64,000 nt of DNA. Origin: Caballeronia concitans. Lineage in GTDB: Bacteria > Pseudomonadota > Gammaproteobacteria > Burkholderiales > Burkholderiaceae. This document shows, one piece after another, positions 21,931-40,692 of the stretch; the stretch's first letter is position 1, and every line of letters begins with the position of its first letter. The translations under genes and the position numbers were made by a program. The notes under the pieces are model-generated. The model was not told where the DNA came from. It did no database searches and saw only the letters and a list, made by a program, of their open reading frames with translations. The DNA is taken from contig NZ_FCNV02000014.1 in NCBI RefSeq assembly GCF_001544615.1, positions 88,297-152,296 on the forward strand, given 5' to 3'.

Positions 21931-22818
21931 CTATTCCAGCTCTTCAAAAAGCCAGTCCTGAAAGCTCTTCACTTTCGGCAGGTCCACCGACGACTTGAGT
22001 AAGTTCAGCGTATACCCATTCACGCTCAACCCGTCGAACCCGAACGGCGCGACGAGCTTTCCCGCATCGAGCTCGCGCTGCACGAGCAGCAGACTCTCCA
22101 GACACACGCCGACTCCATCGACCGCCGCGCTGATCGCCATGAACGAGCGATCGAAGCGCGGTCCGCGCGAAATGTCGAGCGGCGTCTTCCGATGCATACG
22201 CATCCAGTCGCGCCATCCGACCAGACAATTCTCGCTGTGAATCAGCGTGTGATGCTTCAGGTCCGCCACCGTGCGAATCGGATGCTTCCCTTCCATCAGC
22301 GCCGGCGAACACAGCGGCACGATGGTCTCCGACGGCAGGTCGAGCACCAGCGTGCCCGCCGGTTGCAGCCTGCGCGCGCCGTATCGCAAGTCGATATCGA
22401 CGGACTCACGCGTCAGATCGACGGGATCGTTCGACGCATTCAGCCGCAAATCGATGTCCGGATGCCGCGACGAAAAGCGCGCGAGCCGCGGCATCAGCCA
22501 TTGCGTGGCGAAGCTCGGCGTCGAATGCACGGTGAGGATGTCGCTCTTGGCCACGCGCCCGATGTCGCGCGTCGCCTTCTCGATGCGCGCGAACGCCGCG
22601 CCGATCTCTTCCGCATAGTGCCGGCCGCTGTCGGTGAGGATCACCGCGCGATGCACGCGATGAAAGAGCCTCAGGCTCAACTGCTCTTCCAGCAGCTTGA
22701 TCTGATGGCTGATCGCGGACGGCGTCACGAACAGTTCCTCTGCTGCAAGCGCGAAAGAGGAGAGCCTCGCCGCCGCCTCGAACGCTTGTATGGACTTGAG
22801 CGTCACGCGATTGTGCAT
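21931..22818 (-). CDS. LysR regulator, GcvA-like, of split-transketolase module 1
   Basis: A 295-residue LysR protein of the GcvA subgroup. The helix-turn-helix is KSIQAFEAAARLSSFALAAE, then TPSAISHQIKLLEEQLSLRL. The effector domain contains STPSFATQWLMPRLARF, a GcvA hallmark. It is divergent from the transketolase operon starting at 22977 and probably activates it in response to its substrate or an intermediate. It closely parallels the second LysR (31571-32461), which has the same STPSFATQWL-like motif and the same divergent arrangement. This suggests duplication of a whole regulator-enzyme module. A palindrome precedes its start codon. Confidence 0.9.
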   Translation of the reverse strand: MHNRVTLKSIQAFEAAARLSSFALAAEELFVTPSAISHQIKLLEEQLSLRLFHRVHRAVILTDSGRHYAEEIGAAFARIEKATRDIGRVAKSDILTVHSTPSFATQWLMPRLARFSSRHPDIDLRLNASNDPVDLTRESVDIDLRYGARRLQPAGTLVLDLPSETIVPLCSPALMEGKHPIRTVADLKHHTLIHSENCLVGWRDWMRMHRKTPLDISRGPRFDRSFMAISAAVDGVGVCLESLLLVQRELDAGKLVAPFGFDGLSVNGYTLNLLKSSVDLPKVKSFQDWLFEELE

Positions 22819-22831
22819 TGCAGTGCTCGGA

Positions 22832-22844
22832 TGAATTCAATTCA
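22832..22844. promoter_or_regulatory. Palindrome in LysR1/transketolase-1 intergenic region
   Basis: TGAATTCAATTCA is a perfect 6-1-6 inverted repeat, 14 bases upstream of the LysR1 start. A GGCTGTC at 22875-22881 further downstream is also present in the equivalent place of the second module (32520-32526). Both are candidate LysR contacts. Confidence 0.35.
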
Positions 22845-22976
22845 ACGATGCGCCACTTTAATTCGTTTGAGCGCGGCTGTCTAAAGCAATACGCTTGAAC
22901 CTACTCACTGGCCGCCGCGTTCGAGGGAATACCCGGAGTCGCGCGGGCCGCCAATAAAACGATGGAGACAACACGC

Positions 22977-23810
22977 GTGAACAACGACATCGCGCAACTC
23001 GCGGAGCATGCGCATCGCATTCGGCGCAACGCCCTTCTGATGGGCGAGGTGCAAGGCCAGGGCTATATCGGCCAGGCGCTCGATATCGCCGACGTGCTCG
23101 CGGTCGCCTATTTCGGCGCGATGAATCACCGCCCCGACGATCCCGCATGGGAAGAGCGCGATCGCTTTCTTCTGTCCAACGGTCACTACGCGATCGCGCT
23201 CTACGCCGCGCTCTTCGAAGCGGGTGTGTTGCCCGAAGACGAACTCGAAACCTACGGCAGCGACGACAGCCGTTTGCCGATGTCCGGCATGGCGAGCTAC
23301 ACGCCCGGCATGGAAATGTCCGGCGGCTCGCTCGGTCAGGGCCTGACGATCGCAGTCGGCCGCTGTCTCGGTCTGAAGCGCAAGGGCTCAACATCCTTCG
23401 TCTACACGCTTTTCTCCGACGGCGAACTCGATGAAGGCGCGATCTGGGAAGGCCTGATGTCCGCCGCGCACTGGAGACTCGACAACCTCATCGCCATCGT
23501 CGATGTGAACAACCAGCAAGCCGATGGTCCCTCGACGCAGGTCATGGCATTCGAGCCGCTCGTCGAGAAGCTCGAAGCATTCGGCTGGTACACGCAACGC
23601 ATCGACGGCAACGACATCCGCGCCGTGAAAGCGGCATTCGACAACGCGCGCAACCTGAAGGAGGCGAAGCCGCGCATCATCGTGTGCGACACGAAGATGG
23701 GCTGCGGCGTGCCGTTCCTCGAGGAGCGCGAGAAGAATCACTTCATTCGCGTCGATCCGCACGAGTGGAAGCTCGCGCTCGAAGCGCTGGAACAAGGACG
23801 CCCGGCATGA
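22977..23810 (+). CDS. Transketolase N-terminal (TPP-pyrophosphate) subunit, copy 1
   Basis: A 277-residue transketolase large subunit homologue. GEVQGQGYIGQALDIADVLA and DRFLLSNGHYAIALYAALFE are the substrate/TPP-proximal blocks; GGSLGQGLTIAVGRCLGL and FSDGELDEGAIWEGLMSAAH form the TPP-Mg motif. The usual GDG appears as SDG. The start is taken at a GTG with GGAGAC upstream; an ATG at 22962 is the alternative. It overlaps the C-terminal subunit gene by 4 bases (ATGA). The two chains together should make one ketol-transferring enzyme. It is the first gene of an operon reaching to 31576 and is controlled divergently by LysR1. Its nearest relative in the window is copy 2 at 32636. Confidence 0.9.
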   Translation: MNNDIAQLAEHAHRIRRNALLMGEVQGQGYIGQALDIADVLAVAYFGAMNHRPDDPAWEERDRFLLSNGHYAIALYAALFEAGVLPEDELETYGSDDSRLPMSGMASYTPGMEMSGGSLGQGLTIAVGRCLGLKRKGSTSFVYTLFSDGELDEGAIWEGLMSAAHWRLDNLIAIVDVNNQQADGPSTQVMAFEPLVEKLEAFGWYTQRIDGNDIRAVKAAFDNARNLKEAKPRIIVCDTKMGCGVPFLEEREKNHFIRVDPHEWKLALEALEQGRPA

Positions 23811-24790
23811 ATACGCGACTGAAAACCTCCGCGATGATCGCGTCCATCGCAGGCGAAGGACAGGTCACGCGTTCCGCACCGTTCGGCCACGCACTCGCCG
23901 AACTCGCGCGCACGAATGCGAACGTCGTCGGCATGACGGCCGATCTCGGCAAGTACACGGACCTGCATGTCTTCGCGAACGCATTTCCCGAGCGCTATTA
24001 CCAGATGGGCATGGCCGAGCAACTGCTGATGGGCGCGGCCGCGGGCATGGCGCACGAAGGCGCGCAGCCGTTCGTCACGACCTATGCCGTGTTCGCGACG
24101 CGCCGCGCCTACGACTTCATCCATCAAACGATCGCGGAGGACAACCTCGACGTGAAGATCGTCGCCGCGCTGCCCGGACTCACGACCGGCTACGGTCCGA
24201 GCCACCAGGCCGCCGAAGACCTCGCGCTGATGCGCGCGATGCCCAACATGACGGTCATCGACCCGTGCGATGCGCTCGACATCGAGCAGATGGTTCCGGC
24301 CATCGCCGCGCACAAGGGCCCGGTCTATGCGCGTCTGTTGCGCGGCAACGTGCCCGCCGTGCTCGACGAATACGGCTATCAGTTCGAACTCGGCAAAGCG
24401 AAGCTCTTGCGCGGCGGCAATGACGTGCTGATGATTTCCACCGGCATCATGACGATGCGCGCGCTCGAGACGGCCAAGGCCCTCCGGCAGGACAACGTCG
24501 ACGTCGCCGTGCTGCACGTCCCGACGATCAAGCCGCTCGACACCGCGACGATCCTGCGCGAAGCGAAGCGCACCGGCCGCATGGTGGTCGTCACCGAAAA
24601 CCATACGACGATCGGCGGACTCGGCGAAGCCGTCGCGCGCGCCCTGCTCGGCGCGGGCGTGACGCCGCCCTTCCGCCAGATCGCCCTGCCCGACGCGTTT
24701 CTCGACGCGGGCGCGCTACCCACCTTGCACGATCGCTACGGCATCTCGACCGAAGCGATGTGCAACACCATCAAAGGCTGGCTCGGCTAA
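23807..24790 (+). CDS. Transketolase C-terminal (pyrimidine-binding) subunit, copy 1
   Basis: A 327-residue subunit. TSAMIASIAGEGQ and GMTADLGKYTDLHVFANAFP are followed by YQMGMAEQLLMGAAAGMAHE, whose Glu is the catalytic residue that activates TPP. PGLTTGYGPSHQAAEDLALM corresponds to the canonical GEDGPTHQ acceptor loop, but the position of the Asp that contacts substrate hydroxyls is Tyr (Tyr129). A C-terminal transketolase domain follows (VLMISTGIMTMRALETAKAL). It partners with the preceding gene through an ATGA overlap. The changed acceptor loop suggests a non-standard acceptor or donor. Confidence 0.9.
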   Translation: MNTRLKTSAMIASIAGEGQVTRSAPFGHALAELARTNANVVGMTADLGKYTDLHVFANAFPERYYQMGMAEQLLMGAAAGMAHEGAQPFVTTYAVFATRRAYDFIHQTIAEDNLDVKIVAALPGLTTGYGPSHQAAEDLALMRAMPNMTVIDPCDALDIEQMVPAIAAHKGPVYARLLRGNVPAVLDEYGYQFELGKAKLLRGGNDVLMISTGIMTMRALETAKALRQDNVDVAVLHVPTIKPLDTATILREAKRTGRMVVVTENHTTIGGLGEAVARALLGAGVTPPFRQIALPDAFLDAGALPTLHDRYGISTEAMCNTIKGWLG

Positions 24791-24825
24791 GCCTTCATCG
24801 ACAACAACCACTGGAGATTCAAATC

Positions 24826-25590
24826 ATGTCAGAGTCGCGTCTTCTCGAAGGCAAGGTCGCCGTCATTTCCGGAGCGGCATCGCCGCGCGGGATCGGCATG
24901 GCGACGGCGCGCATGTTCGCGAAGCACGGCGCGAAAGTCGCCATTCTCGATCTCGACGAAGCCGCCGCGCGCGAAGCGGCCGGCAGCATCGGCCCGGAAC
25001 ATCGCGGCTATGTCTGCAACGTGACCGACCGCGCCGCGTGCGACGCCGCCGTGGATCGCATCGTCACGGACTTCGGCGGCATCGACATTCTCATCAACAA
25101 CGCGGGCGTCACGCAGGCCGCGAAGCTGCTCGACATCGACTCCGAAAGCTGGGACCGCATTCTCGACGTGAACCTGCGCGGCGTGCTGTATCTGTCGCAA
25201 GCCGTCGTCCCGGTGATGAAGCGCAACGGCGGCGGCTCGATCGGCTGCATGTCGTCGGTATCGGCGCAGCGCGGCGGCGGCATTCTCGGCGGCCCGCACT
25301 ATTCCGCCGCGAAGGCAGGCGTGCTCGGTCTCGCCAAGGCGATGGCGCGCGAGTTCGGCGTCGACGGCATCCGCGTGAATTGCGTGACGCCGGGCCTCAT
25401 TCAGACCGACATCAACGCCGGCAAGATCAGCGACGAAAAACGCGTCGAGATTCTCGCCGGCATTCCGCTCAATCGTCTGGGCGTGCCCGACGACGTCGCC
25501 GGCGCATTTCTCTTTCTCTCCGCGCCGATTTCCTCGTACATTACGGGCGCCGTCATCGACGTGAACGGAGGCATGCTGATTCACGGTTGA
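24826..25590 (+). CDS. Short-chain dehydrogenase/reductase in transketolase operon
   Basis: A 254-residue classical SDR: VAVISGAASPRGIGMATARM (cofactor loop), ILINNAGVTQAAKLLDIDSE, Ser in GCMSSVSAQRG, and the Tyr/Lys pair in HYSAAKAGVLGLAKAMAREF. AILDLDE places an Asp after the second beta strand, favouring NAD over NADP. The ATG follows GGAGA at a good distance. It sits 35 bases after the transketolase subunit and 60 bases before a TRAP binding protein, so it probably oxidises or reduces the imported polyol or ketose. The true substrate is unknown. Confidence 0.9.
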   Translation: MSESRLLEGKVAVISGAASPRGIGMATARMFAKHGAKVAILDLDEAAAREAAGSIGPEHRGYVCNVTDRAACDAAVDRIVTDFGGIDILINNAGVTQAAKLLDIDSESWDRILDVNLRGVLYLSQAVVPVMKRNGGGSIGCMSSVSAQRGGGILGGPHYSAAKAGVLGLAKAMAREFGVDGIRVNCVTPGLIQTDINAGKISDEKRVEILAGIPLNRLGVPDDVAGAFLFLSAPISSYITGAVIDVNGGMLIHG

Positions 25591-25650
25591 AACGCGCGGC
25601 ATCGAATAACAACACTTATATCGACATCACCCGGTTTGGAGGAGCACACC

Positions 25651-26691
25651 ATGACCACTCGCACGAAAGACAGCGGCATCGACCGGCGTACGTTCCTGAA
25701 GACGGGCGCGACCATCGCCGCGGCCGCTCCGCTGTTCGCCATCACGACGCGCCGCGCATCGGCGGCCGAGTTCTCGTACAAGCTCGCGACGGGTCAGGAC
25801 CCGACGCATCCGGTGAACATTCGCGGCCAGCAGGCCTGCGACAAGATCCGCGAAGCGACCGGCGGCAGGCTCGACATCAAGCTCTTTCCCGCCAATCAGC
25901 TCGGCTCCGACACCGACCTGCTCTCGCAGGTGCGCAGCGGCGGCGTCGAGTTCTTCAATCTCGCATCGTCGATTCTCGCGACACTCACGCCCGCCGCCGG
26001 CATCGTCAACACGGGCTTCGCGTTTCCCGACTACGACACCGTCTGGAAAGCCATGGACGGCGATCTCGGCGGTTATATCCGCCAGCAGATCGAGAAGTCG
26101 GGAATCATCGCGGTGTCGAAGCCGTGGGACAACGGCTTTCGGCAAGTGAGTTCGTCCACGCGCGTCGTGAAGACGCCCGCCGATCTGAAGGGCTTCAAGA
26201 TTCGCGTGCCGCAAGCGCCGATGCTCACGTCGCTCTTCAAGTCGCTCGATGCCGGTCCCGCGCCGATCAACTTCAACGAACTGTATTCCGCGTTGCAGAC
26301 GGGCGTGGTCGAAGGTCAGGAAAACCCGTTGCCGATCATCGCGACGGCGAAGCTCTACGAAGTGCAGAAGTCCATCAGCCTCACGTCGCACGTGTGGGAC
26401 GCGTACTGGATTCTCGGCAACCGCCGCGCGTGGGAGAAGCTGCCCGCCGACATGCGCGCGATCGTCACGCGCGAGTTCGAAGCGGCCGGCATGAATCAGC
26501 GCGCGGATATCGCGAAGCTAAATTCGAGCCTGCGCGACGACCTGAAGGGCAAGGGCATCAACATCGTCGAGGTAGATCGTGAAGCGTTCCGCGGCGCGCT
26601 GAAGAAAACGAGCTTCTATACCGACTGGAAATCGAAGTACGGCGAGCAAGGCTGGGGCGTGCTCGAAAAGTACACCGGCAAACTGGTATGA
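25651..26691 (+). CDS. TRAP transporter substrate-binding protein DctP (Tat signal)
   Basis: A 346-residue periplasmic solute-binding protein. The N-terminus has DRRTFLKTGATIAAAAPLFA, a twin-arginine signal, and is then processed near RRASAAEF. The TRAP DctP pattern follows: KLATGQDPTHPVNIRGQQAC, VKTPADLKGFKIRVPQAPML, with the Arg that usually salt-bridges a substrate carboxylate, and ALQTGVVEGQENPLPIIATA. The start has GGAGG six to eight bases upstream. It overlaps the permease gene by 4 bases (ATGA). The conserved Arg suggests that the imported compound carries a carboxylate or sulfonate group, which fits a sugar acid rather than a neutral sugar. Confidence 0.93.
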   Translation: MTTRTKDSGIDRRTFLKTGATIAAAAPLFAITTRRASAAEFSYKLATGQDPTHPVNIRGQQACDKIREATGGRLDIKLFPANQLGSDTDLLSQVRSGGVEFFNLASSILATLTPAAGIVNTGFAFPDYDTVWKAMDGDLGGYIRQQIEKSGIIAVSKPWDNGFRQVSSSTRVVKTPADLKGFKIRVPQAPMLTSLFKSLDAGPAPINFNELYSALQTGVVEGQENPLPIIATAKLYEVQKSISLTSHVWDAYWILGNRRAWEKLPADMRAIVTREFEAAGMNQRADIAKLNSSLRDDLKGKGINIVEVDREAFRGALKKTSFYTDWKSKYGEQGWGVLEKYTGKLV

Positions 26692-28559
26692 AAATCATGC
26701 AGACGGTTCCGCTTCCGCATCCGGCGCCGCATCGCGGTATCGCGGCGAAACTCGATACCGTGCTCGGCCATCTCGTCGAGATTCCGGCAGCGCTGCTGGT
26801 CGTGGCCGAGATCGTCGTGCTGCTCGCCGGCGTGACGAGCCGCTATGCGCTGCACACGCCGCTCGTCTGGTCCGACGAACTCGCCTCGATGCTGTTCCTC
26901 TGGCTCGCGATGCTCGGCGCGGTCGTCGCCTTGCGGCGCGGCGAGCACATGCGGATGACGGCGCTCGTCGGCATGGCGTCGCCCGGCATGCGCGCGTTTC
27001 TCGATGTCGTCGCGATCGCGGCGCCCCTCGCCTTCCTCGCGATGGTGATCGGCCCTGCCATCGACTTCGCGCAGGACGAAGCGTTCATCACGACGCCCGC
27101 GCTCGGCATTTCCAACTCGTGGCGCGCGGCCGCGCTGCCCATCGGCTCGGGCCTGATGCTGCTCGTCGCGTGCGTGCGGCTCGTGCGCGTCGGCGACCGG
27201 AAGCTCGTGCTCGGCGCGCTCGCGGTGGTCGCGGCCATCGCAGGCGCGTTCTACGCGGCGAGTCCGATGCTGAAGGATCTCGGCAATCTGAACCTTCTGA
27301 TCTTCTTCGTCGGACTCGTGGCGTTGTGCGTGCTGTCGGGCGTGCCCATCGCGTTCTCCTTCGGGCTTGCGACCTTCGGCTATCTCGCGCTCACGACGAG
27401 CACGCCGCTCGAAGTCGTGGTCGGGCGCATGGACGAAGGCATGTCGCATCTGATCCTCCTGTCCGTGCCGCTCTTCGTGTTCCTCGGACAACTGATCGAG
27501 ATGACCGGCATGGCCGCCGCGATGATCGCGTTCCTCGCGAGCCTGCTCGGTCACGTGCGCGGCGGCTTGTCGTACGTGCTCGTCGGCGCGATGTATCTCG
27601 TCTCCGGCATCTCCGGTTCGAAAGCCGCCGACATGGCCGCCGTCGCGCCCGTCTTGTTCCCCGAGATGAAGGCGCGCGGCGCGAAGCCCGGCGATCTCGT
27701 GGCGCTGCTCGCGGCAACGGGCGCGCAGACGGAAACCATTCCGCCGAGTCTCGTGCTCATCACGCTCGGCTCGGTGACCGGCGTGTCGATTTCCGCGCTG
27801 TTCACGGGCGGCATGCTGCCGGGCATCGTGCTCGCGATCACCTTGTGCGCGGTCGTGTGGTGGCGCTATCGCGTGGACGATCTGTCGAACGTGAAACGCG
27901 CGTCGCGCGGCGAGATCCTGCGCAAGCTCGCCATCGCCCTGCCCGCGCTCGCCTTGCCGTTCGTGATTCGCGCGGCGGTGGTCGAAGGCGTCGCGACCGC
28001 GACGGAAGTCTCGACCATCGGCATCGCATATGCAGTGCTCGCGGGCCTGCTCATCTATCGCCGCTTCGAATGGGCGCGTCTCAAGCCGATGCTGATCGAC
28101 ACCGCCGCGTTGTCCGGCGCGATCCTGCTCATCATCGGCGCGGCGACGAGCATGGCGTGGGCGCTCACGCAATCCGGCTTCTCCGGCCAGCTCGCGCGCG
28201 CGATGGCGGCGCTTCCCGGCGGCGGATGGATGTTCATGGCGGCCTCGATCCTCGTGTTCATCGTGCTCGGCAGCGTGCTCGAAGGCATTCCGGCAATCGT
28301 GCTGTTCGGCCCGCTGATGTTTCCGATCGCGCGGCAAATGGGCATCAACGACGTGCATTACGCGATGGTCGTGATCCTGTCGATGGGCGTCGGCCTGTTC
28401 GCGCCGCCGTTCGGCGTCGGCTATTACTCGGCGTGCGCCGTGAGCCGCATTCATCCCGACGAAGGCATGAAGCCGATCCTCGGCTATATCGCGGCGCTGA
28501 TCGTCGGCCTGATTCTCGTCGCCGCCATTCCGTGGATTTCCACGGGCTTCCTGAAGTAA
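26688..28559 (+). CDS. Fused TRAP permease DctQM
   Basis: A 623-residue membrane protein joining the small DctQ subunit (about residues 1-170, four helices: VVAEIVVLLAGVTSRYALHT, VWSDELASMLFLWLAMLGA) to the large DctM subunit (from about 200, with NLLIFFVGLVALCVLSGVPI, VGAMYLVSGISGSKAADMAA and GLFAPPFGVGYYSACAVSRI). Together with DctP it forms a sodium-driven importer. It overlaps the binding-protein gene. Alternative start MQTVP lies three codons in. Fused QM forms are common in this family. Large antisense open frames over this gene are composition artefacts. Confidence 0.93.
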   Translation: MKIMQTVPLPHPAPHRGIAAKLDTVLGHLVEIPAALLVVAEIVVLLAGVTSRYALHTPLVWSDELASMLFLWLAMLGAVVALRRGEHMRMTALVGMASPGMRAFLDVVAIAAPLAFLAMVIGPAIDFAQDEAFITTPALGISNSWRAAALPIGSGLMLLVACVRLVRVGDRKLVLGALAVVAAIAGAFYAASPMLKDLGNLNLLIFFVGLVALCVLSGVPIAFSFGLATFGYLALTTSTPLEVVVGRMDEGMSHLILLSVPLFVFLGQLIEMTGMAAAMIAFLASLLGHVRGGLSYVLVGAMYLVSGISGSKAADMAAVAPVLFPEMKARGAKPGDLVALLAATGAQTETIPPSLVLITLGSVTGVSISALFTGGMLPGIVLAITLCAVVWWRYRVDDLSNVKRASRGEILRKLAIALPALALPFVIRAAVVEGVATATEVSTIGIAYAVLAGLLIYRRFEWARLKPMLIDTAALSGAILLIIGAATSMAWALTQSGFSGQLARAMAALPGGGWMFMAASILVFIVLGSVLEGIPAIVLFGPLMFPIARQMGINDVHYAMVVILSMGVGLFAPPFGVGYYSACAVSRIHPDEGMKPILGYIAALIVGLILVAAIPWISTGFLK

Positions 28560-28617
28560 GTCAATCCCTTTCGAACTCGTTGATGCCGCTCCTTTCACGG
28601 AGCGGCAAGGAGAAGTC

Positions 28618-30597
28618 ATGTCTTCCATCGACACGCCAGCGCTGTCGAACGCCATCCGCTTCCTCGCCATCGATGCGATCGTGCGCGCGGGCGAAGGCCA
28701 CCAGGGCGTGCCGCTCGGCATGGCCGAGATCGCCACGGCGCTCTTCACGCGCCACATGAAGTTCAATCCCGCCGATCCGCAATGGCCCGACCGTGACCGC
28801 TTCGTGCTGTCCAACGGACATGGCTCGATGCTGCTCTATGCCGTGCTGCATCTGACCGGCTATGCGAACTTCGGCATCGATCAGATCAGGACGTTTCGCG
28901 AGATGGGCTCGCACTGCGAAGGGCATCCCGAGTTCGATACGGCGTCGGGCATCGAAGTGACGACCGGCCCGCTCGGGCAAGGCATCGCGAACGCGTTCGG
29001 CATGGCCGTCGCGGAGGCGTATCTGAACGCGAAGTTCGGCGACGGCATCGTCGATCACTACACGTACGCGTTCGTCGGCGACGGCTGTTTGCAGGAAGGC
29101 GTCGGACAGGAAATGATTTCGCTCGCGGGGCATCTGAAGCTCGGCAAGCTCATTCTGTGCTGGGACGATAACCGCATCACCGACGACGGCAGCACGTCGC
29201 TATCCATCAGCGAGGATGTGAGCGCGCGCTTTCGCGTGGCGGGCTGGCATGTGATCGAAGTCGACGGCCACGATCTGGACGCGGTTTCCCGCGCGCTCGA
29301 CGAAGCGAAGCAAGACGCGCGGCCCTCGATGATCGCGTGCCGCACGGTGATCGCACGCGGCATCGCGCGTCTGCAAGGCCAGCGCGGCGGGCACAGCGGG
29401 CGTCTCTTCGAAAAGGACGCCGACGCCGCGCGCAACGAACTGAACTGGCCGCACGCGCCGTTCGAGATTCCCGCCGACGTGCTGAAAACCTGGCGCGATG
29501 CGGGCCGCCGCAGCGAAGGCGAATATCGCGCGTGGCGCGAGCGCGTCGCGTCGTTGCCGTCGCAAACGCGTGCGGAGTTCGAGCGCATCATGGCGGGCGA
29601 ATTGCCGGAAGGCTGGAAAGACACGCTCGAAACGTACAAGCGCGATGCGCAGAAGAGAGACGAAGCGCCCGGCGGAATCCTGATCTCGGCGGAGATCAAC
29701 GATCTGCTCGCGAACGTGCTGCCCGAGCGCGTGGTCGGCTGCGCGGACCTCGAAGCGCCGACGAGCCACAAGCGCAGCCTGCGCGGGTTCAATGCAGAAG
29801 ACCGCGGCGGCGCCTACGTGCATTGCGGCGTGCGCGAGCACGTCATGGGCGCGATGGCGAACGGCATGGCCGCGCACGGCGGCATCGTGCCGCTCGCCGT
29901 CACCTATCTGGCCTTTTCCGACTACGAGCGCCCCGCGATGCGCATGGCCGCGCTGATGGGTCTGCCGGTGAAGTTCGTCTTCAGCCACGACTCGATCGGC
30001 GTCGGCAAGAACGGGCCGACGCACCAGCCGGTGGAAATCCTCGCGTCCCTGCGCGCGATGCCGAACATGCGCGTGTTTCGTCCCGCGGATGCCGTCGAAG
30101 CCGCCGAATGCTGGATGCTCGCCTACGAGCACAGGACCGGCCCGAGCACGATGGTGTTCGCCCGTCAGACGCTGCCGCTCGTGCGCCGCTCGCACGACGC
30201 GGCGAATCTCAGCGCGCGGGGCGGCTATGTGCTTGCGAAGGCCGTTGGCGGCGAGCGCCGCGTCACGCTCATCGCGACCGGCTCGGAAGTGGCCATCGCG
30301 CTCGCCGCGCGCGAGCAGTTGCAGGCGGCGGGCATTCCGACGGCCGTCGTGTCGATGCCCTGCTGCGAACTCTTCGACGAACAGGACGCGGATTATCGGC
30401 AAAGCGTGCTCGGCGCCGGCACCGTGCGCGTCGCGGTGGAAGCGGCCGTGCGCTTCGGATGGGACCGCTATCTCGGCGATCGAGGCGGCTTCGTCGGCAT
30501 GAACGGCTTCGGCGCATCGGGGCCGGCCGAGGCGTTGTACGAGCACTTCGGCATCACGCCCGCGCATGTCGTCGCACAGGCGCAGCGGCATCTTTGA
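28618..30597 (+). CDS. tkt: Full-length transketolase with altered acceptor site
   Basis: A 659-residue single-chain transketolase. Conserved parts: DRFVLSNGHGSMLLYAVLHL, EGHPEFDTASGIEVTTGPLG, the TPP motif VGDGCLQEGVGQEMISLAGH, CGVREHVMGAMANGMA with catalytic Glu407, and FSHDSIGVGKNGPTHQPVE. In the last motif the E. coli Asp469 equivalent is Asn465. AGHPG is EGHQG, and the segments carrying the phosphate contacts Arg358 and Ser385 in E. coli (SRKAS, NLTLWSGS) do not match. The phosphate-contacting Arg520 equivalent (FARQTLP) is kept. A GGAG site precedes the ATG. It lies 58 bases after the TRAP permease, inside a catabolic operon rather than with pentose-phosphate genes. Confidence 0.92.
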   Translation: MSSIDTPALSNAIRFLAIDAIVRAGEGHQGVPLGMAEIATALFTRHMKFNPADPQWPDRDRFVLSNGHGSMLLYAVLHLTGYANFGIDQIRTFREMGSHCEGHPEFDTASGIEVTTGPLGQGIANAFGMAVAEAYLNAKFGDGIVDHYTYAFVGDGCLQEGVGQEMISLAGHLKLGKLILCWDDNRITDDGSTSLSISEDVSARFRVAGWHVIEVDGHDLDAVSRALDEAKQDARPSMIACRTVIARGIARLQGQRGGHSGRLFEKDADAARNELNWPHAPFEIPADVLKTWRDAGRRSEGEYRAWRERVASLPSQTRAEFERIMAGELPEGWKDTLETYKRDAQKRDEAPGGILISAEINDLLANVLPERVVGCADLEAPTSHKRSLRGFNAEDRGGAYVHCGVREHVMGAMANGMAAHGGIVPLAVTYLAFSDYERPAMRMAALMGLPVKFVFSHDSIGVGKNGPTHQPVEILASLRAMPNMRVFRPADAVEAAECWMLAYEHRTGPSTMVFARQTLPLVRRSHDAANLSARGGYVLAKAVGGERRVTLIATGSEVAIALAAREQLQAAGIPTAVVSMPCCELFDEQDADYRQSVLGAGTVRVAVEAAVRFGWDRYLGDRGGFVGMNGFGASGPAEALYEHFGITPAHVVAQAQRHL

Positions 30598-30619
30598 ATC
30601 GTCAATTCCGGACATAGTC

Positions 30620-31576
30620 ATGCAGAAGATCGTCTTTCTCGACCGCGAAACGCTCGCTCCGCAAATCACGCTCAGGCGCCCCGCATTCGAACACGAACTC
30701 GTCGAATACGACCGCACCGCGCCCGATCAGGTCGCGGCGCGCCTCGCGGGCGCGAGCATCGTCATCACGAACAAGGTCGCGATCACCGCCGACGTCATCG
30801 AGCAGGTGCCCACGCTCCAACTCGTCGCGGTCGCCGCCACGGGCACGGACGTCGTCGACAAGGCGGCGTGCGCGAAACGCGGCATCGTCGTATCGAACAT
30901 TCGCGGCTATGCGGTGAACACGGTGCCGGAGCACACCTTCGCGCTGATGCTCGCGTTGCGCCGCAACCTCGTCGCATACCGCGACGACGTGCTGAACGGC
31001 GAGTGGCGGAAATTCGGCCAGTTCTGCTTCTTCAATCACGCGATACGCGATCTGGGCGGCGCCACGCTCGGCATCATCGGCGAAGGCGTGCTCGGGCAGC
31101 GCGTCGCCGAAATCGCGAAAGCGTTCGGCATGAAGCCGGTTTTCGCGGCGCATAAAGGACGCGATGGACTGGGGCCGCTCTACACGCCGTGGGACGAAGT
31201 GCTCGCGACGAGCGATGTCATCACGATCCATAGCCCGCTCACGCCGCAGACGCGCGGCATGCTGTCGACGGCCGAATTCCGCGCGATGAAGAAGAGGCCG
31301 CTCATCATCAACACGGCGCGCGGCGGACTGGTCGACGAAGCCGCGCTGGCCGCGGCGCTGGACGAAGGGCTCATCAGCGGCATCGGTTTCGACGTGCTCA
31401 CGACGGAGCCGCCCGCGCCCGACAACCCGCTCATGCGCATCGCCGGCCGGCCGAACGTGATCGTGACGCCGCACGTCGCGTGGGCGTCGGACGAAGCGCA
31501 GCAGTCGCTCGCCGATCAGCTGATGGACAACGTCGCGGCGTTCGTCGCGGGCGCGCCGGTCAACGTGGTGTCATGA
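30620..31576 (+). CDS. D-isomer-specific 2-hydroxyacid dehydrogenase
   Basis: A 318-residue NAD(P)-dependent enzyme of the D-2-hydroxyacid dehydrogenase family. VAVAATGTDVVDKAACAKRG lies in the substrate domain, LGGATLGIIGEGVLGQRVAE is the nucleotide fold (GxGxxG), and TIHSPLTPQTRGMLSTAEF, IINTARGGLVDEAAL and VTPHVAWASDEAQ contain the Arg-Glu-His catalytic set. Relatives reduce hydroxypyruvate or glyoxylate. In this operon it may process a 2-keto acid product of the transketolases. Start at 30620 is 22 bases after the transketolase stop. Its last codon abuts the stop of the convergent LysR2 gene. Confidence 0.9.
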   Translation: MQKIVFLDRETLAPQITLRRPAFEHELVEYDRTAPDQVAARLAGASIVITNKVAITADVIEQVPTLQLVAVAATGTDVVDKAACAKRGIVVSNIRGYAVNTVPEHTFALMLALRRNLVAYRDDVLNGEWRKFGQFCFFNHAIRDLGGATLGIIGEGVLGQRVAEIAKAFGMKPVFAAHKGRDGLGPLYTPWDEVLATSDVITIHSPLTPQTRGMLSTAEFRAMKKRPLIINTARGGLVDEAALAAALDEGLISGIGFDVLTTEPPAPDNPLMRIAGRPNVIVTPHVAWASDEAQQSLADQLMDNVAAFVAGAPVNVVS

Positions 31577-32461
31577 CCGCTCGACGATACCGAGCGCGTT
31601 CAGCAGCCACGCCTTGAAGGTCTCGAACGCCTCGTGCCGATGCGCCCTGCGCGGATGCACGAGGTAGTGCCCCACGTACTCCACTTCTTTTGCCGATCCG
31701 GCGAGCGGCCGCACGAGTTCGCCGCGCTGCAGCTCGCGCTCGGACAGCAACGTCGATTCGAGCACGACGCCGAGACCGTCGACGGCGGCGGCGATCGCCA
31801 TCGAACTGCGGTCGAAGCGCAGGCCGTAGTGCGTCGGCGGCGGAAGCGCGTTGGCTTCGAACCAGCCTTTCCATTGATACATCTGCACTTCGCACTGGAT
31901 CAGCGGCAGGTGATACAGATCTTGCGGCTCGCGGATGCGCTCCGCGAGCGCCGGCGTGCACAAGGGCGCTAGGCCTTCGAGCACGAGCGGAATCTTTTCG
32001 TGCGGTGAAGGCTTCGGCTCGCCATAGACGATGTCGAGATCGAAGTCGTCGTCGAAGCGCGCGTAGTCGGTATTCGCGGAAAAGCGCAAGTCGATGTTCG
32101 GGTGATCGCGCACGAAGCCCGCGAGCCGCGGCAGCAGCCATTGCGTCGCGAAGCTCGGCGCGGTGTGCAGCCGCAGCGGCGTGCGCTCGTCGCTCGCCAG
32201 CAGCGCAAAGCCGCGCTGCATCTCGTCCATGCCGCGCTGGATGTGCTCCATCAGCATCGCGCCTTCGCGCGTGAGGCGCACTTCCCGCGTGCTGCGCAGG
32301 AAGAGCCTGGTCCGGAGCAGATCTTCCATCTTGCGCACCGAATGACTGACCGCGCTGGGCGACAGATTCAGCTCGCGAGCAGCATCCGCGAAAGAAAGCG
32401 TGCGGCCGGCAGCCTCGAAAACCCGGATATACGAGAGCGGAACCTTGCGGAAGACGTTCAT
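31571..32461 (-). CDS. LysR regulator, GcvA-like, of split-transketolase module 2
   Basis: A 296-residue GcvA-type LysR. The helix-turn-helix is YIRVFEAAGRTLSFADAARE, then LSPSAVSHSVRKMEDLLRTR. The effector domain opens with LHTAPSFATQWLLPRLAGF, matching LysR1. It is divergent from the second transketolase operon (start 32636), and its stop overlaps that of the convergent 2-hydroxyacid dehydrogenase by six bases. It probably regulates module 2. Its similarity in fold, motif and placement to LysR1 supports module duplication. Confidence 0.9.
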   Translation of the reverse strand: MNVFRKVPLSYIRVFEAAGRTLSFADAARELNLSPSAVSHSVRKMEDLLRTRLFLRSTREVRLTREGAMLMEHIQRGMDEMQRGFALLASDERTPLRLHTAPSFATQWLLPRLAGFVRDHPNIDLRFSANTDYARFDDDFDLDIVYGEPKPSPHEKIPLVLEGLAPLCTPALAERIREPQDLYHLPLIQCEVQMYQWKGWFEANALPPPTHYGLRFDRSSMAIAAAVDGLGVVLESTLLSERELQRGELVRPLAGSAKEVEYVGHYLVHPRRAHRHEAFETFKAWLLNALGIVERS

Positions 32462-32635
32462 GCGCGGGATTCGTGAATGGTGTTCATCAGTTGCTGCAAT
32501 CTTTTCTTTTGTCAGCGCCGGCTGTCAAGGCTAAATTTTGCCAACCTCGTTTCCACACTGCCCGATTGCTGAACAGGAGACAACTGCAGCTTTCGGAGGT
32601 TGTCGAGGATTTCTCTTCCGTCCGCAGGAACAGCC

Positions 32636-33526
32636 ATGACAATGATTACCGAGGCCGAGCCGCAAGCCGGCTCGCGCCCAGCGCAACTCGCCAAACTCGC
32701 CGATCACGCTTACCGCATTCGCCGCTTCGCGCTGCGCATGGGCGAAGTGCAGGGCCAGGGCTATATCGGCCAGGCGCTCGGACTCGCCGATGCCCTCGCC
32801 GTCGCCTGGTGCCACGCGATGAACCTCCGCCCCGCCGATCCCGAATGGGAAGGCCGCGACCGCTTTCTGCTCTCGCACGGCCACTACGCGATCGCGCTTT
32901 ACGCCGCGCTGATCGAAGCGGGTGTGATCCCCGAGGAAGAGCTGGAAACGTACGGCTCCGACGACTCGCGCCTGCCCATGTCCGGCATGGCCACGTACAC
33001 GCCGGGCATGGAAATCTCGGGCGGCTCGCTCGGGCAGGGGCTGACGATCGCCGTCGGCATGGCGCTCGGTCTCCGTCTGAAGGGCAATCCGGCATTCGTC
33101 TACAACTCGATGTCCGACGGCGAGCTCGATGAAGGCGCGACGTGGGAAGCCGCGTTGTCCGCCGCGCATCACGGCCTCGGCAATCTCATCACGATGGTCG
33201 ACATCAACCGCCAGCAGGCGGACGGCCCGTCGCACGACGTGCTCGCCTTCGAGCCGCTCGCGGACAAGTTCGCGTCGTTCGGCTGGCACGTCGAGCGCGT
33301 GAACGGCAACGACATGCCCGCGCTGGTCGCGGCATTCGACCGTTGCCGGTCGCTGAACGAGGCGAAGCCGCGCGTCATCCTGCTCGACACCTTGATGGGC
33401 AAGGGCGTGCCGTTTCTGGAGGCGCGCGAGAAGAATCACTTCATCCGGGTGGACCCCGAAGAATGGCAGCAGGCGATCGCCGTGCTCGATCAACACCACG
33501 CAGCAGCACAAGGAGACGCAGCATGA
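32636..33526 (+). CDS. Transketolase N-terminal subunit, copy 2
   Basis: A 296-residue paralogue of the gene at 22977, sharing GEVQGQGYIGQAL, DRFLLSHGHYAIALYAAL, ELETYGSDDSRLPMSGMA, GGSLGQGLTIAVG, and MSDGELDEGATWEAALSAAH. Again the TPP motif has SDG instead of GDG. The ATG at 32636 is preceded by AGGAAC; ATG codons two apart (MTM) leave a small ambiguity. It overlaps its C-terminal partner by 4 bases. It is the first gene of a four-gene operon, and its promoter region shares the GGCTGTC element with module 1. Confidence 0.9.
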   Translation: MTMITEAEPQAGSRPAQLAKLADHAYRIRRFALRMGEVQGQGYIGQALGLADALAVAWCHAMNLRPADPEWEGRDRFLLSHGHYAIALYAALIEAGVIPEEELETYGSDDSRLPMSGMATYTPGMEISGGSLGQGLTIAVGMALGLRLKGNPAFVYNSMSDGELDEGATWEAALSAAHHGLGNLITMVDINRQQADGPSHDVLAFEPLADKFASFGWHVERVNGNDMPALVAAFDRCRSLNEAKPRVILLDTLMGKGVPFLEAREKNHFIRVDPEEWQQAIAVLDQHHAAAQGDAA

Positions 33527-34524
33527 GCGCCGTCGCTGAAAAGAAACCACGCCTCACGACCTCCGCGATGATCGCGTCGATCGCATCGGAAGGCCAGCAG
33601 ACGCGTCCCGCGCCGTTCGGCCACGCGCTCGTCGCGGAAGCGGAGAAGCGCCGCAACATCGTCGGCATGACGGCCGATCTGTCGAAGTACACCGACCTGC
33701 ACATCTTCAGCCAGGCGTTCCCCGAGCGTCACTTTCAGATGGGCATGGCCGAGCAGTTGTTGATGGGCGCGGCGGGCGGCATGGCGAAGGAAGGCTTCAT
33801 TCCGTTTGCGACGACCTACGCCGTGTTCGCCACGCGCCGCGCGTACGACTTCATCCACCAGGTGATCGCGGAAGAGAACCTCAACGTGAAAATCTGCGCG
33901 GCGCTGCCCGGACTCACGACCGGTTATGGCCCGAGCCACCAGGCGACCGAAGACCTCGCGTTGATGCGCGCGATTCCCGGCATGACCGTGATCGACCCAT
34001 GCGACGCGCTGGACACCGAACAGGCCGTCGCCGCGATCGCGGCGCACGAAGGCCCGGTCTACATGCGTCTCTTGCGCGGCAAGGTGCCCGCCGTGCTCGA
34101 CGACTACGACTACCGCTTCGAACTCGGCAAGGCGAAGATGCTGCGCGACGGCGCGGACGTGCTCATCGTCTCGTCCGGCATCATGACCATGCGCGCGCTC
34201 GAAGCAGCGCAGGCGCTGGATGACGGCTCGGCGAGCGTCGGCGTGCTGCACGTGCCGACCATCAAGCCGCTTGACGAGGCGACCATCATCGAGCAATGCA
34301 GGAAGCCGGGACGGCTCGTGATCGTCGCGGAGAACCACAGCGTGATCGGCGGTCTGGGCGACGCCGTGACGAGCGCACTGGTGCGTCATCGCGTGATGCC
34401 GGAGTTCCGTCAGATCGCCCTGCCCGACCAGTTTCTCGATGCGGGCGCGCTGCCGACGCTGCACGACCGCTATGGCATTTCGACGGCATCCATCGTGGAA
34501 AACATCAAACACTGGCTCAAGTAA
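33523..34524 (+). CDS. Transketolase C-terminal subunit, copy 2
   Basis: A 333-residue paralogue of the gene at 23807. GMTADLSKYTDLHIFSQAFP, FQMGMAEQLLMGAAGGMAKE with the catalytic Glu, and PGLTTGYGPSHQATEDLALM with Tyr135 in place of the canonical acceptor-loop Asp. The C-terminal domain has VLIVSSGIMTMRALEAAQAL. AAGGAGA precedes the ATG, which overlaps the partner's stop. Both paralogues carry the same Tyr substitution, so it pre-dates the duplication and is unlikely to be a random error. Confidence 0.9.
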   Translation: MSAVAEKKPRLTTSAMIASIASEGQQTRPAPFGHALVAEAEKRRNIVGMTADLSKYTDLHIFSQAFPERHFQMGMAEQLLMGAAGGMAKEGFIPFATTYAVFATRRAYDFIHQVIAEENLNVKICAALPGLTTGYGPSHQATEDLALMRAIPGMTVIDPCDALDTEQAVAAIAAHEGPVYMRLLRGKVPAVLDDYDYRFELGKAKMLRDGADVLIVSSGIMTMRALEAAQALDDGSASVGVLHVPTIKPLDEATIIEQCRKPGRLVIVAENHSVIGGLGDAVTSALVRHRVMPEFRQIALPDQFLDAGALPTLHDRYGISTASIVENIKHWLK

Positions 34525-34526
34525 TC

Positions 34527-35378
34527 ATGAACGTGACTTTCATTGGGATCGGTGCGATCGGTCTGCCGATGGCGCTGCGAATCAAGGGCGCGGGCCACGA
34601 CGTGACCGGCGTCGACCTGTCGCCCCGAGCGCTCGACATGGCGCGCGAGAGCGGTCTTGCCGCCGTCGACAGTTTCGCGGCCGCGCCTGCGCCGGACGTC
34701 GTCGTCGCGATGGTGGCGACGCCGCAGCAGCTCGCATCGCTCGTCGAGAGCGTCGGCACGAAGCTCGACAACCAGACCTGGGTCGTCATGTCGACGGTCG
34801 GTCCGGATGCGGTGCGCGAGCAAGGCAAACGCCTTGCGGCGGCAGGCGCGCGCGTCGTCGATGCGCCCGTGACCGGCGGCACCGCGCGTGCGAAGACCGG
34901 CCAGCTCGTGATCTTCGCATCGGGCGATCAGGCGGACATCGACGCCGCGCGCCCCGTGCTCGACGCGATGGGCAGCGTGCGCGTCACCGGCCCGAAGCTC
35001 GGCGACGGGCAGGCGATCAAGGTCGTGAACCAGCATCTGTGCTCGGTGCATATCGTCGCGGCGGCCGAAGCGCTGAATCTGGCGCGCTCGCTCGGCCTCG
35101 ATCCGGCGGCCGTGCTCGAACTCGTCGAGAAAGGCGCGGCGGGCTCGTGGATGCTTTCGGATCGCGGTCCGCGCATGCTGCAAGGCACGGACGTGAACGT
35201 GACCAGCTCGATCAACATTTTCGTTAAAGACAGCGATCTCGTCGCCCATGCCGCGAAGTCCTGCGGCGCGGATGTGCCGCTGCTTTCGATCGCCAACGCG
35301 CGTTATCACGAAGCCGCCGACAAGGGACTCGGCCTGCGCGACGACAGCCGCGTGATAGAAACCTGGGAGAAGTCCTGA
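34527..35378 (+). CDS. Beta-hydroxyacid dehydrogenase, L-threonate dehydrogenase (LtnD)-like
   Basis: A 283-residue member of the 3-hydroxyisobutyrate dehydrogenase family. NVTFIGIGAIGLPMALRIKG is the Rossmann motif; VVDAPVTGGTARAKTGQLVI is the second family signature; GDGQAIKVVNQHLCSVHIVA carries the catalytic Lys. The C-terminal AAGSWMLSDRGPRML and SINIFVKDSDLVAH resemble LtnD, which oxidises L-threonate to 2-oxotetronate, more than tartronate-semialdehyde reductase; this is from memory of family sequences. It begins 2 bases after the transketolase subunit, so it is co-translated with module 2 and suggests a four-carbon acid or similar intermediate. Confidence 0.85.
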   Translation: MNVTFIGIGAIGLPMALRIKGAGHDVTGVDLSPRALDMARESGLAAVDSFAAAPAPDVVVAMVATPQQLASLVESVGTKLDNQTWVVMSTVGPDAVREQGKRLAAAGARVVDAPVTGGTARAKTGQLVIFASGDQADIDAARPVLDAMGSVRVTGPKLGDGQAIKVVNQHLCSVHIVAAAEALNLARSLGLDPAAVLELVEKGAAGSWMLSDRGPRMLQGTDVNVTSSINIFVKDSDLVAHAAKSCGADVPLLSIANARYHEAADKGLGLRDDSRVIETWEKS

Positions 35379-35485
35379 GATCGGGACGCCATTTGTCGCG
35401 TTGAAAGCGCTCGGCGAAGCGCAACGCATTCTCGGCCGCCTCGCTTCCCGCAGGCGGCTGGTTGATGTATCGGAGACACCACGAC

Positions 35486-36793
35486 ATGAGCAGCAACAAC
35501 GAAGACCGCGCGGTCAAGGTGGCCGTCGCGTCGATGATCGGCTCGGCGGTCGAGAGCTACGACTTCTTCATCTACGGCACGGCCGCCGCCGCGTGGTTCG
35601 GCAAGATATTCTTTCATACGACCGAGCCGATCGTCGGCATTCTGGCGTCGTTCGCGACGCTCGCCATCGGCTTTCTCATGCGTCCGTTCGGCGGCTATCT
35701 CGCCGGACACTACGGCGATCGCCTGGGCCGCAAGGCCGTGCTGTTCTGGTCGCTCGTGGCAATGGGCGGCGCGACCGTGCTGATCGGCTTCCTGCCGACT
35801 TACGCGCAAGCCGGCGTGCTCGCGCCGATCCTGCTCATCCTGCTGCGCATGGTGCAGGGCGTCGGCTTCGGCGCTGAATGGGGCGGCGCGGTGCTGATGG
35901 CGTGTGAACACGCGCCGGAGAAGCGCCGTGGTTTCTTCGGCGCGGTGCCGCAACTGGGCATTCCGCTCGGCCTGCTCCTTGCGAACGGCGCGTTCCTTTT
36001 GTCGGGCGCGCTCTTCGAAGGCGACTGGGTCTGGCGCATGCCATTCCTGATGTCTTTCGTGATGGTCGCGATCGGCATCTTCATCCGGATGAGCGTGTCC
36101 GAGTCGCCGGCATTCGAAGCGGTGAAAGCCGAGAACAAGGTGATGAAGCAACCGGCGCTCGAAGTCATCAGGAGCGACTGGCGCGGCATTCTGAAGATCG
36201 TCGGCCTGCGCATGGCGGAGACCGGCGGCTACTACATCACGACGAGTTTCATGCTGTCGTATGTGGCGCTCGCGCATGTGTCGACCACGCGCCATATCCT
36301 GTGGGGCACGTTGATCGGCTCCGCGCTCGGCCTCGTGAGCCACCTGATCTACGGCGCGCTGAGCGACAGGATCGGCCGCCGTCCGGTGTTCATGATGGGC
36401 GCGCTGTTCACCATCGCCTTCGGCGTGCCGATGTTCATGCTGATCAACACCGGCGCGGTCATCATGGTGATCGTCGCGGTCGCGCTGTCCCTGCTCTTCA
36501 GCCACGATCCAATTTTCGCGGTCGAAGCAAGCTGGTTCTCGGAGCAGTTTCCGGCCAACGTGCGCTCGTCGGGCATTTCGCTCGGCTATAACGGTGCGTC
36601 GGTGATCGCGGGTCTTCTGCCGATCATCGCCACCGGCATGTACGGCGCGTTCGGCTGGATCGGTCCGGCGCTGATGTTCTCCGTGCTCGGCGTGATCTCG
36701 ACATGCTGTGCGCTGGCGATGAAGGAGACCGCGCCCGCCGTGCTGGAGAAACGCGATCTGCGGCACAGCGCGGATCGGCGCTTCGCGGCTTAG
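35486..36793 (+). CDS. MHS-family (metabolite:H+ symporter) MFS permease
   Basis: A 435-residue, twelve-helix permease of the MHS group (ShiA/KgtP-like). Typical features are MIGSAVESYDFFIYGTAAAA, FLMRPFGGYLAGHYGDRLGR (motif A), VQGVGFGAEWGGAVLMACEH, and GALSDRIGRRPVFMMGALFT. Members import organic acids such as shikimate, oxoglutarate or proline-betaine with protons. ATG 35486 is used; GGAG lies about eleven bases upstream. It closes the module 2 operon and is followed by a strong terminator. The island thus has two different uptake systems, one per module. Confidence 0.9.
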   Translation: MSSNNEDRAVKVAVASMIGSAVESYDFFIYGTAAAAWFGKIFFHTTEPIVGILASFATLAIGFLMRPFGGYLAGHYGDRLGRKAVLFWSLVAMGGATVLIGFLPTYAQAGVLAPILLILLRMVQGVGFGAEWGGAVLMACEHAPEKRRGFFGAVPQLGIPLGLLLANGAFLLSGALFEGDWVWRMPFLMSFVMVAIGIFIRMSVSESPAFEAVKAENKVMKQPALEVIRSDWRGILKIVGLRMAETGGYYITTSFMLSYVALAHVSTTRHILWGTLIGSALGLVSHLIYGALSDRIGRRPVFMMGALFTIAFGVPMFMLINTGAVIMVIVAVALSLLFSHDPIFAVEASWFSEQFPANVRSSGISLGYNGASVIAGLLPIIATGMYGAFGWIGPALMFSVLGVISTCCALAMKETAPAVLEKRDLRHSADRRFAA

Positions 36794-40439: not shown

Positions 40440-40692
40440 AAACGATCCCCGTTTGTTAGTTTTTTGTTGTTCATGTTTCACCGTTCGAAAGCGCACTGAA
40501 TGCGTTACGAAGGTGTGACAAATGGTAACTTAATGTAAACGCATAAATCAATAGCTCACCGGCGCAGAGTGCGGCACGAATGTCGCCCGCGCCGTGCGAA
40601 TCGCACTCCGATGTCATCAGGCGAAGGCCCTGCGATTAGAATCGCCGTCTCCGGTTACAGCACTAAGCCCGAACGACAAGGACATCGAGACC

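Follow-up and report, generated by a model that had tools for sequence, protein, structure and literature searches.

Neighbouring cassettes with altered two-chain transketolases in Caballeronia concitans, and a possible kinase-free route for sugar acids

Introduction

Transketolases with unusual donors are known from catabolic clusters: SqwGH is a sulfofructose transketolase and AptAB an apulose-4-phosphate transketolase. The L-threonate and tetronate pathways comprise LtnD, OtnI, OtnK and OtnC. Described here is an island of 13 genes, positions 21931-36793 of a 64,000-nucleotide stretch (the window) of contig NZ_FCNV02000014.1, from the 6.17 Mb genome of Caballeronia concitans; its coordinates and gene content were confirmed, and it holds two cassettes that each encode a transketolase split over two chains. 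We tentatively propose (probability about 0.42) that the two neighbouring cassettes catabolise an unphosphorylated sugar acid, a dehydrogenase making a keto-aldonate from which the transketolase would take the terminal C2 ketol.

The residues concerned are known from the Escherichia coli enzyme. Asp469 forms bonds to His26 and Arg91 in the partner chain, His461 is linked to the binding of phosphate, and the D469Y variant shows an 8-fold rise in activity on propanal, with the stereochemistry reversed to 68% R (PMC3657141). Ser385 touches the phosphate, and a tyrosine at 385 would clash with the substrate phosphate (PMC5073344). The double change H100L and D469T admits pyruvate as donor; with S385Y added, kcat rose 630-fold with an aromatic acceptor (PMC10787763). 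For the donor side, 5-keto-D-gluconate has been proposed as an unphosphorylated substrate of transketolase and is used by an E. coli mutant (review PMC11066805).

Active-site residues

The comparison covered 121 N-subunits and 124 C-subunits, all distinct and at least 60% identical, from the loci retrieved. Residue numbers are those of E. coli, mapped via the motifs of PDB chain 8qmf. In the first pair of the island (TK1N, TK1C), Tyr35 stands at the place of His26, Ser108 at His100, Tyr50 at Ser385, Leu122 at His461, Tyr129 at Asp469, and Arg179 at Arg520; in the second (TK2N, TK2C), Tyr41 and Ser114 replace the two histidines of the N-chain, and Tyr56, Leu128, and Tyr135 stand at Ser385, His461, and Asp469. 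The same replacements recur throughout the family: His26 to Tyr and His100 to Ser in 121/121 N-subunits; Ser385 to Tyr, His461 to Leu, and Asp469 to Tyr in 124/124 C-subunits. All five of these donor- and acceptor-site residues of canonical pentose-phosphate transketolases are changed in every row of the split family. His66, Asp155, Glu160, Asn185, and His261 are unchanged in every N-subunit; Glu411, His473, and Arg520 in every C-subunit. The chains carry the N, pyrimidine, and C domains of the superfamily dependent on thiamine diphosphate (ThDP), with Asp155, Glu160, Asn185, and Glu411 kept; because the ThDP residues are intact, the cassette transketolases are, as judged from sequence, probably active.

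In a second alignment with 40 cassette rows, Arg91 is replaced by Gly and Gly262 by Phe (40/40 each), and position 26 is Tyr in 40/40 cassette rows, with a gap in 2/36 canonical rows. Counting ungapped back from the invariant His473 (alignment to 6yaj; residue counts), Tyr falls at the place of Asp469; another alignment puts it one column upstream with a gap at 469, the family being one residue shorter, and Asp is absent either way. In one alignment the split family has lost Arg358; another retains it next to a one-residue insertion, and neither state is claimed here.

The full-length transketolase of the island was compared with 40 relatives (at least 55% identity). Asn stands at 469 in 40/40, Ile in place of Arg358 in 39/40, and Pro in place of Ser385 in 39/40; His100, His461, and Arg520 are kept in 40/40, and His26 in 39/40 with one gap. 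In the island enzyme itself Ser385 and Asp469 are changed and His26, His100, and His461 retained, and it passes the transketolase cut-off of NCBIfam TIGR00232 (Table 1). It is of a lineage separate from that of the split pair. The loss of Asp469 is not due to chance, because Tyr is found in all 124 C-subunits and Asn in all 40 full-length relatives, against Asp in 35/38 other full-length matches (same residue count). Groups of low-identity residue counts, like the tree group 'otherSplit', contain pieces of full-length transketolases, and no conclusion is drawn from them.

That Asp469 is missing from all three transketolases of the island had been the core of the original prediction, which was made from the letters of the window; its positions (Tyr129, Tyr135, and Asn465 of the full-length enzyme) were recovered, and an Asp at the aligned site, which would have refuted it, is absent from the alignments. 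Added to it here are His26 to Tyr, His100 to Ser, Ser385 to Tyr, and His461 to Leu in the split enzymes, and Arg358 to Ile and Ser385 to Pro in the full-length one.

Phylogeny and distribution

The tree comprises 92 C-terminal halves, with several long branches flagged; its 15 canonical rows are 14 from the order of the window and from genome matches, and one from 8qmf. The 34 rows of the split family form one clade (100/99) on the side of the split enzymes, separated by a very long branch from the full-length transketolases; the full-length rows of the operon form a fork of their own (100/98) apart from the 15 canonical rows. The split enzymes are not placed among pentose-phosphate transketolases, which agrees with the original prediction. 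The clade is also not joined to the row of 1-deoxy-D-xylulose-5-phosphate synthase (DXS), and the C-subunits score 202.3 and 184.8 bits with the DXS model against a cut-off of 465.95.

The split family (C-subunit at least 65% identical) was found in 22/398 sampled Pseudomonadota genomes; the next matches are at 55% and 50%, and the others at or below 44%. Plasmid records matching the DNA of the pair number 195/72,556, among them Pantoea (49), Rhizobium (34), Bradyrhizobium (15), Azospirillum (7), and Acinetobacter (6). The family spans three classes of Pseudomonadota and many plasmids, and the records examined name it only 'transketolase'. Full-text searches of an open library found no description of the cassette, and one may be in print elsewhere. 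Of the eight closest loci with a name, seven belong to Caballeronia (TK1C identity 93-96%). The genome has a third split pair on another contig, with LysR, short-chain dehydrogenase/reductase (SDR), and major facilitator superfamily (MFS) genes and a C-subunit 90% identical, and three further full-length transketolases, 43, 49, and 51% identical to that of the island. At E<=1e-235 the full-length type is present in 3/299 genomes, all three with the split family; a stand-alone full-length copy with the motif GKNGPTHQ occurs in two further cassette genomes.

Several relatives have settings of their own. The Klebsiella aerogenes locus L014 (6990-17004) is from the conjugative plasmid pYD-K10_1, where a set of the second-cassette type adjoins a Tn3 transposase, a recombinase, and an aminoglycoside phosphotransferase gene. 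Beyond the clade, the closest relatives are L158 (10244-11425; 55%) and L159 (11897-13069; 50%), from genomes G274 and G331; enolase-superfamily genes belonging to the same cluster lie near both (PF13378 for that in L158), and a sister pathway with a sugar-acid dehydratase is possible there. On a Variovorax paradoxus plasmid (L171, 7136-10800), a 43% identical split pair stands beside glycerol dehydrogenase, SDR, and acyl-CoA genes.

Gene neighbourhoods

Cassette 1 has a LysR gene divergent from TK1N-TK1C-SDR-DctP-DctQM-full-length transketolase-D-2-hydroxyacid dehydrogenase, DctP and DctQM (25651-28559) forming a tripartite ATP-independent periplasmic (TRAP) carrier; cassette 2 has a second LysR gene divergent from TK2N-TK2C-dehydrogenase of the 3-hydroxyisobutyrate dehydrogenase (HIBDH) type-metabolite:H+ symporter (MHS) carrier. 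The N- and C-chains are encoded separately in adjacent genes, which overlap by 4 bases in both pairs (23807-23810; 33523-33526), and are 69.5% (N) and 73.4% (C) identical between the pairs. A single widespread cassette type is present here in duplicate, as TK1 and TK2, and each copy is under separate regulation, with a LysR gene of its own alongside.

The pair was found at 150 places; counted are the 122 on loci of at least 9 kb, the 28 on shorter loci being dropped. The best 80 loci of one scan, all Burkholderiales, gave 82 of the 122 contexts and other sources gave 40, so that the counts lean to Burkholderiales. Neighbours were counted within 9 kb with identity limits; looser limits had earlier given 42 for the full-length transketolase, 41 for the 2-hydroxyacid dehydrogenase, 16 for the HIBDH type, and 57 for MFS, and the main figures are unchanged under the stricter ones. 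An SDR lies beside the pair in 116/122 contexts, an SDR or HIBDH-type enzyme in 118/122, and a TRAP or MFS carrier in 112/122. The four contexts with neither dehydrogenase are three truncated by a contig end (L042, L075, L095) and one that is not (L143). The full-length transketolase is present in 40/122, the D-2-hydroxyacid dehydrogenase in 39/122, and both in 38/122; the HIBDH type in 13/122; CUT2-like ABC genes in 10/122, five of these with a lactonase-like amidohydrolase (weak L-fuconolactonase score, 102 bits against a cut-off of 400). HIBDH with MHS and no SDR, as in cassette 2, was seen in two contexts, that of Klebsiella aerogenes (L014) and one of genome G328 (L149). In Pantoea and Acinetobacter the set takes its smallest form: LysR, SDR, MFS, and the two transketolase chains. 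The core of the pathway, judged from these counts and smallest sets, is therefore a carrier with a single dehydrogenase and the two-chain transketolase.

The original prediction had read the island as one kinase-free pathway with three transketolases. The two split enzymes, the full-length enzyme, and the TRAP and MHS carriers are present, and family scans of all 13 genes detected no kinase, isomerase, epimerase, or aldolase. The single pathway did not survive, the split pairs being two copies of a cassette and the full-length enzyme of another lineage. Nor is the absence of kinases and isomerases a general trait: genes for kinases of the dihydroxyacetone (Dha) type occur in 4/122 contexts, and a TIM-barrel gene with a xylose-isomerase-like fold in 7/122. 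Considered as a possible hydroxypyruvate isomerase, the TIM-barrel gene gave no NCBIfam match (1e-4) in four of the five scanned copies and a weak epimerase match in one; one copy searched against the PDB gave no match at 1e-5.

The nearest solved TRAP protein of cassette 1 is 4oan, whose ligand is reportedly acetolactate. Its sequence matches genome G678 at 100% and genome G035 at 84%, with no cassette-type transketolase or SDR in the stretches around either match, and the cassette protein is 58.6% identical to that of G678. The 4oan-type genes thus lie outside the cassettes, whose TRAP protein is a distinct copy, so that acetolactate gives no lead to the substrate. 2-Acetolactate is listed among TRAP ligands in a review (PMC5812351). 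The 4oan-type genes of L241 and L242 lie in another type of operon, the three annotated plasmid relatives of which stand beside acyl-CoA synthetase, DUF296, and SDR genes; a branched hydroxy-acid pathway is possible for it.

Proposed pathway and alternatives

We infer the direction, donor, acceptor, products, and substrate of the following scheme, beside the gene content, conservation, residue changes, and phylogeny given above. An acid-type carrier (TRAP or MHS) would import a short aldonate. In the simplest chemistry, the hydroxyl of this acid that adjoins the terminal CH2OH would be oxidised to give a ketose acid, by the SDR in cassette 1 and probably by the HIBDH-type enzyme in cassette 2, a ketose-making enzyme being expected because the dehydrogenase feeds a transketolase. 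The two-chain transketolase, in whose pocket residues that in E. coli hold phosphate and the acceptor hydroxyl are missing, would cut the terminal C2 ketol from the ketose acid. The acceptor would be an aldehyde, in the simplest case a sugar phosphate such as glyceraldehyde 3-phosphate, which would give xylulose 5-phosphate, and a short oxo-acid would remain. C2 transfer within this pathway would also be the task of the full-length transketolase. An unphosphorylated acidic donor, the part of the original prediction that found support, is the best available if unproven idea; it fits the loss of two residues in contact with phosphate in the E. coli enzyme, Ser385 and His461, and carriers of acid-using kinds. 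Arg520 may hold a phosphate of the acceptor; Tyr385 argues against this.

For the substrate, a tetronate (threonate or erythronate) is put forward with much doubt. A C4 acid is favoured because the HIBDH-type enzyme of cassette 2 has the L-threonate dehydrogenase model NF043037 as its best model, below its cut-off, and the HIBDH family acts near a carboxylate; the bit scores are 211.9 in cassette 2 and 284.9, 217.9, 334.4, and 308 in relatives. It is favoured also because plants form threonate when ascorbate is broken down (PMC11066805), and because dihydroxyacetone, which 3-oxotetronate would yield on losing CO2, would account for the Dha-type kinases of four contexts. Cleavage of 3-oxotetronate by the transketolase would leave glyoxylate, which the D-2-hydroxyacid dehydrogenase could reduce. 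Longer substrates are possible as well: a C5 acid would leave tartronate semialdehyde, and a C6 acid tartaric semialdehyde.

Several observations weigh against the scheme. All HIBDH-type scores lie below the NF043037 cut-off of 350, which keeps the enzyme at 34527..35378 outside the L-threonate dehydrogenases; ten of the 122 contexts have no carrier of the kinds sought; and the five scanned TIM-barrel neighbours match no NCBIfam isomerase model above cut-off. Four-carbon-acid kinase genes (PF07005) are in 21/22 cassette genomes against 15 of 116 others (sample of 120), a link weakened by 26/40 genomes of 4.1-7.8 Mb that carry them and have no cassette (Fisher p 0.011); genome size explains much of the co-occurrence. 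With Arg520 kept and an Arg near the place of 358, a phosphate site may survive. Others touch on what is transferred and to what. Neither donor nor acceptor need be phosphorylated: a free aldehyde such as glycolaldehyde, formaldehyde, or glyoxylate would then receive the C2 unit, and phosphorylation of the resulting erythrulose or dihydroxyacetone would follow as a later step, for instance through a Dha-type kinase. We regard this as unlikely. The invariant Tyr385 and Leu461 speak for it, given the clash of Tyr385 with phosphate described for E. coli (PMC5073344), as do the few Dha-type kinase contexts and two Dak1 genes of the own genome, on another contig; Arg520, kept throughout, speaks against it, and a Dak kinase is absent from 14/22 cassette genomes and present in 15/120 genomes at large. 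That the enzymes are natural, phosphate-free counterparts of the laboratory-evolved E. coli transketolases, feeding in sugar acids without a prior kinase step, seems to us similarly doubtful.

The loss of His100 in every N-subunit resembles the pyruvate-admitting laboratory changes, by which kcat rose so strongly once S385Y was added (PMC10787763), and the unit moved might not be hydroxyacetyl. An acetyl-like unit, as moved by DXS and by the pyruvate-accepting variants, would require a methyl-ketone donor, for instance a 5-keto-6-deoxy acid; the DXS score of 202.3 bits and the amidohydrolase with the weak L-fuconolactonase score in 5/122 contexts point the same way. This reading is nevertheless improbable: His473, the other donor-site histidine, is invariant, the split family does not join DXS in the tree, and on general biochemical grounds transfer to glyceraldehyde 3-phosphate would give 1-deoxy-D-xylulose 5-phosphate, a poor catabolic intermediate. 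Less probable still is a donor that is a sulfosugar or a branched sugar of the apulose type, for which the general likeness of split transketolases with carriers speaks, since a sulfonate or phosphate would be expected at the Ser385/His461 site that is lost here; no positive evidence for sulfosugars was found, with no sulfonate-function gene seen among the 13 island genes, and apulose routes need a kinase. Least credible of all are ordinary duplicated pentose-phosphate transketolases, which the TIGR00232 score of the full-length enzyme would allow, against the tree, the active-site changes, the constant company of dehydrogenase and carrier, and the three other full-length transketolases of the genome. 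If the sugar-acid scheme is true, the cassettes would let sugar acids enter metabolism without a kinase; they would also offer a natural scaffold on which to make chiral keto-diols, and an experiment of nature on the roles of donor- and acceptor-site residues.

Genes of the island

Table 1 Genes of the island with window positions, strand, and the evidence for each assignment. Families were assigned to all 13 by family scans (Pfam, NCBIfam).
Gene product	Position	Strand	Evidence
LysR-type regulator 1 (GcvA-like)	21931..22818	-	NCBIfam PRK11139 GcvA subfamily 307.5 bits, cut-off 288
TK1N, split transketolase 1, N-terminal chain	22962..23810	+	Pfam PF00456; alignment to 6yak
TK1C, split transketolase 1, C-terminal chain	23807..24790	+	Pfam PF02779 and PF02780; alignment to 6yaj
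SDR-type dehydrogenase, cassette 1	24826..25590	+	Pfam PF13561; best PDB chain 7krk, 328 bits
TRAP solute-binding protein DctP	25651..26691	+	TIGR00787 227.6 bits, cut-off 175
TRAP membrane protein, DctQ-DctM fusion	26688..28559	+	Pfam PF04290 and PF06808
Full-length transketolase, Asn465 at the Asp469 place	28618..30597	+	TIGR00232 719.5 bits, cut-off 682.25
D-2-hydroxyacid dehydrogenase (glyoxylate/hydroxypyruvate reductase type)	30620..31576	+	Pfam PF02826; PDB 5tx7 and glyoxylate reductases; no NCBIfam equivalog cut-off reached
LysR-type regulator 2, divergent from cassette 2	31571..32461	-	41.1% identical to regulator 1
TK2N, split transketolase 2, N-terminal chain	32642..33526	+	Start ATG 32636 or 32642
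TK2C, split transketolase 2, C-terminal chain	33523..34524	+	
HIBDH-family dehydrogenase	34527..35378	+	NF043037 211.9 bits, cut-off 350; Pfam PF03446 and PF14833
MHS-type MFS carrier	35486..36793	+	TIGR00883 351.8 bits, cut-off 443.45; Pfam MFS_1

Among solved structures the cassette SDR matches 7krk/7krm best, a chain named 3-oxoacyl-ACP reductase, and the next match scores 183 bits; the name may be wrong if that protein comes from such a cassette. Just outside the island, after the MHS carrier, lies a PRISE-like reductase gene (PF22917; window 37179-38228). A gene of the argininosuccinate/adenylosuccinate lyase superfamily (PF00206) at window 40594-42192 has an N-terminal part that by eye resembles an export signal, which is unusual for the family.

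Comparison with known systems

The laboratory variants of the E. coli enzyme (D469Y; S385Y/D469T/R520Q; H100L/D469T) are changed at the same positions as the cassette family, with the identical residue in D469Y and S385Y (PMC3657141, PMC5073344, PMC10787763). The cassette family is thus changed naturally at positions that laboratory evolution picked to leave sugar phosphates behind, and by analogy its activity may be shifted likewise. It differs from the variants in being natural and two-chain, in the further changes His26 to Tyr and His461 to Leu, and in keeping Arg520. Cleavage of 5-keto-D-gluconate for tartrate formation likewise has a dehydrogenase-made unphosphorylated keto-aldonate from which a transketolase takes the C2 end; it is a plant or Gluconobacter case with ordinary transketolases or an E. 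coli mutant, and the accessible part of the review describes no dedicated cassette (PMC11066805).

The split transketolase of Carboxydothermus hydrogenoformans (6yak, N-chain; 6yaj, C-chain) is the best PDB match of both cassette chains, at 200.3 and 229.2 bits, and has the same two-chain layout and ThDP residues. It keeps His26, His100, Arg358, Ser385, His461, and Asp469, where the cassette family has Tyr, Ser, an ambiguous residue at 358, Tyr, Leu, and Tyr; the changes are not general marks of split enzymes, because this one keeps the canonical residues. SqwGH and AptAB are set apart by substrates that carry a sulfonate or a phosphate, whereas the cassette family has lost the phosphate-site residues. 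The L-threonate and tetronate pathways are alike in that the HIBDH-type enzymes of cassette 2 and of some relatives resemble L-threonate dehydrogenase, below its cut-off; they differ in that the island, lacking a kinase or decarboxylase, has a transketolase instead.

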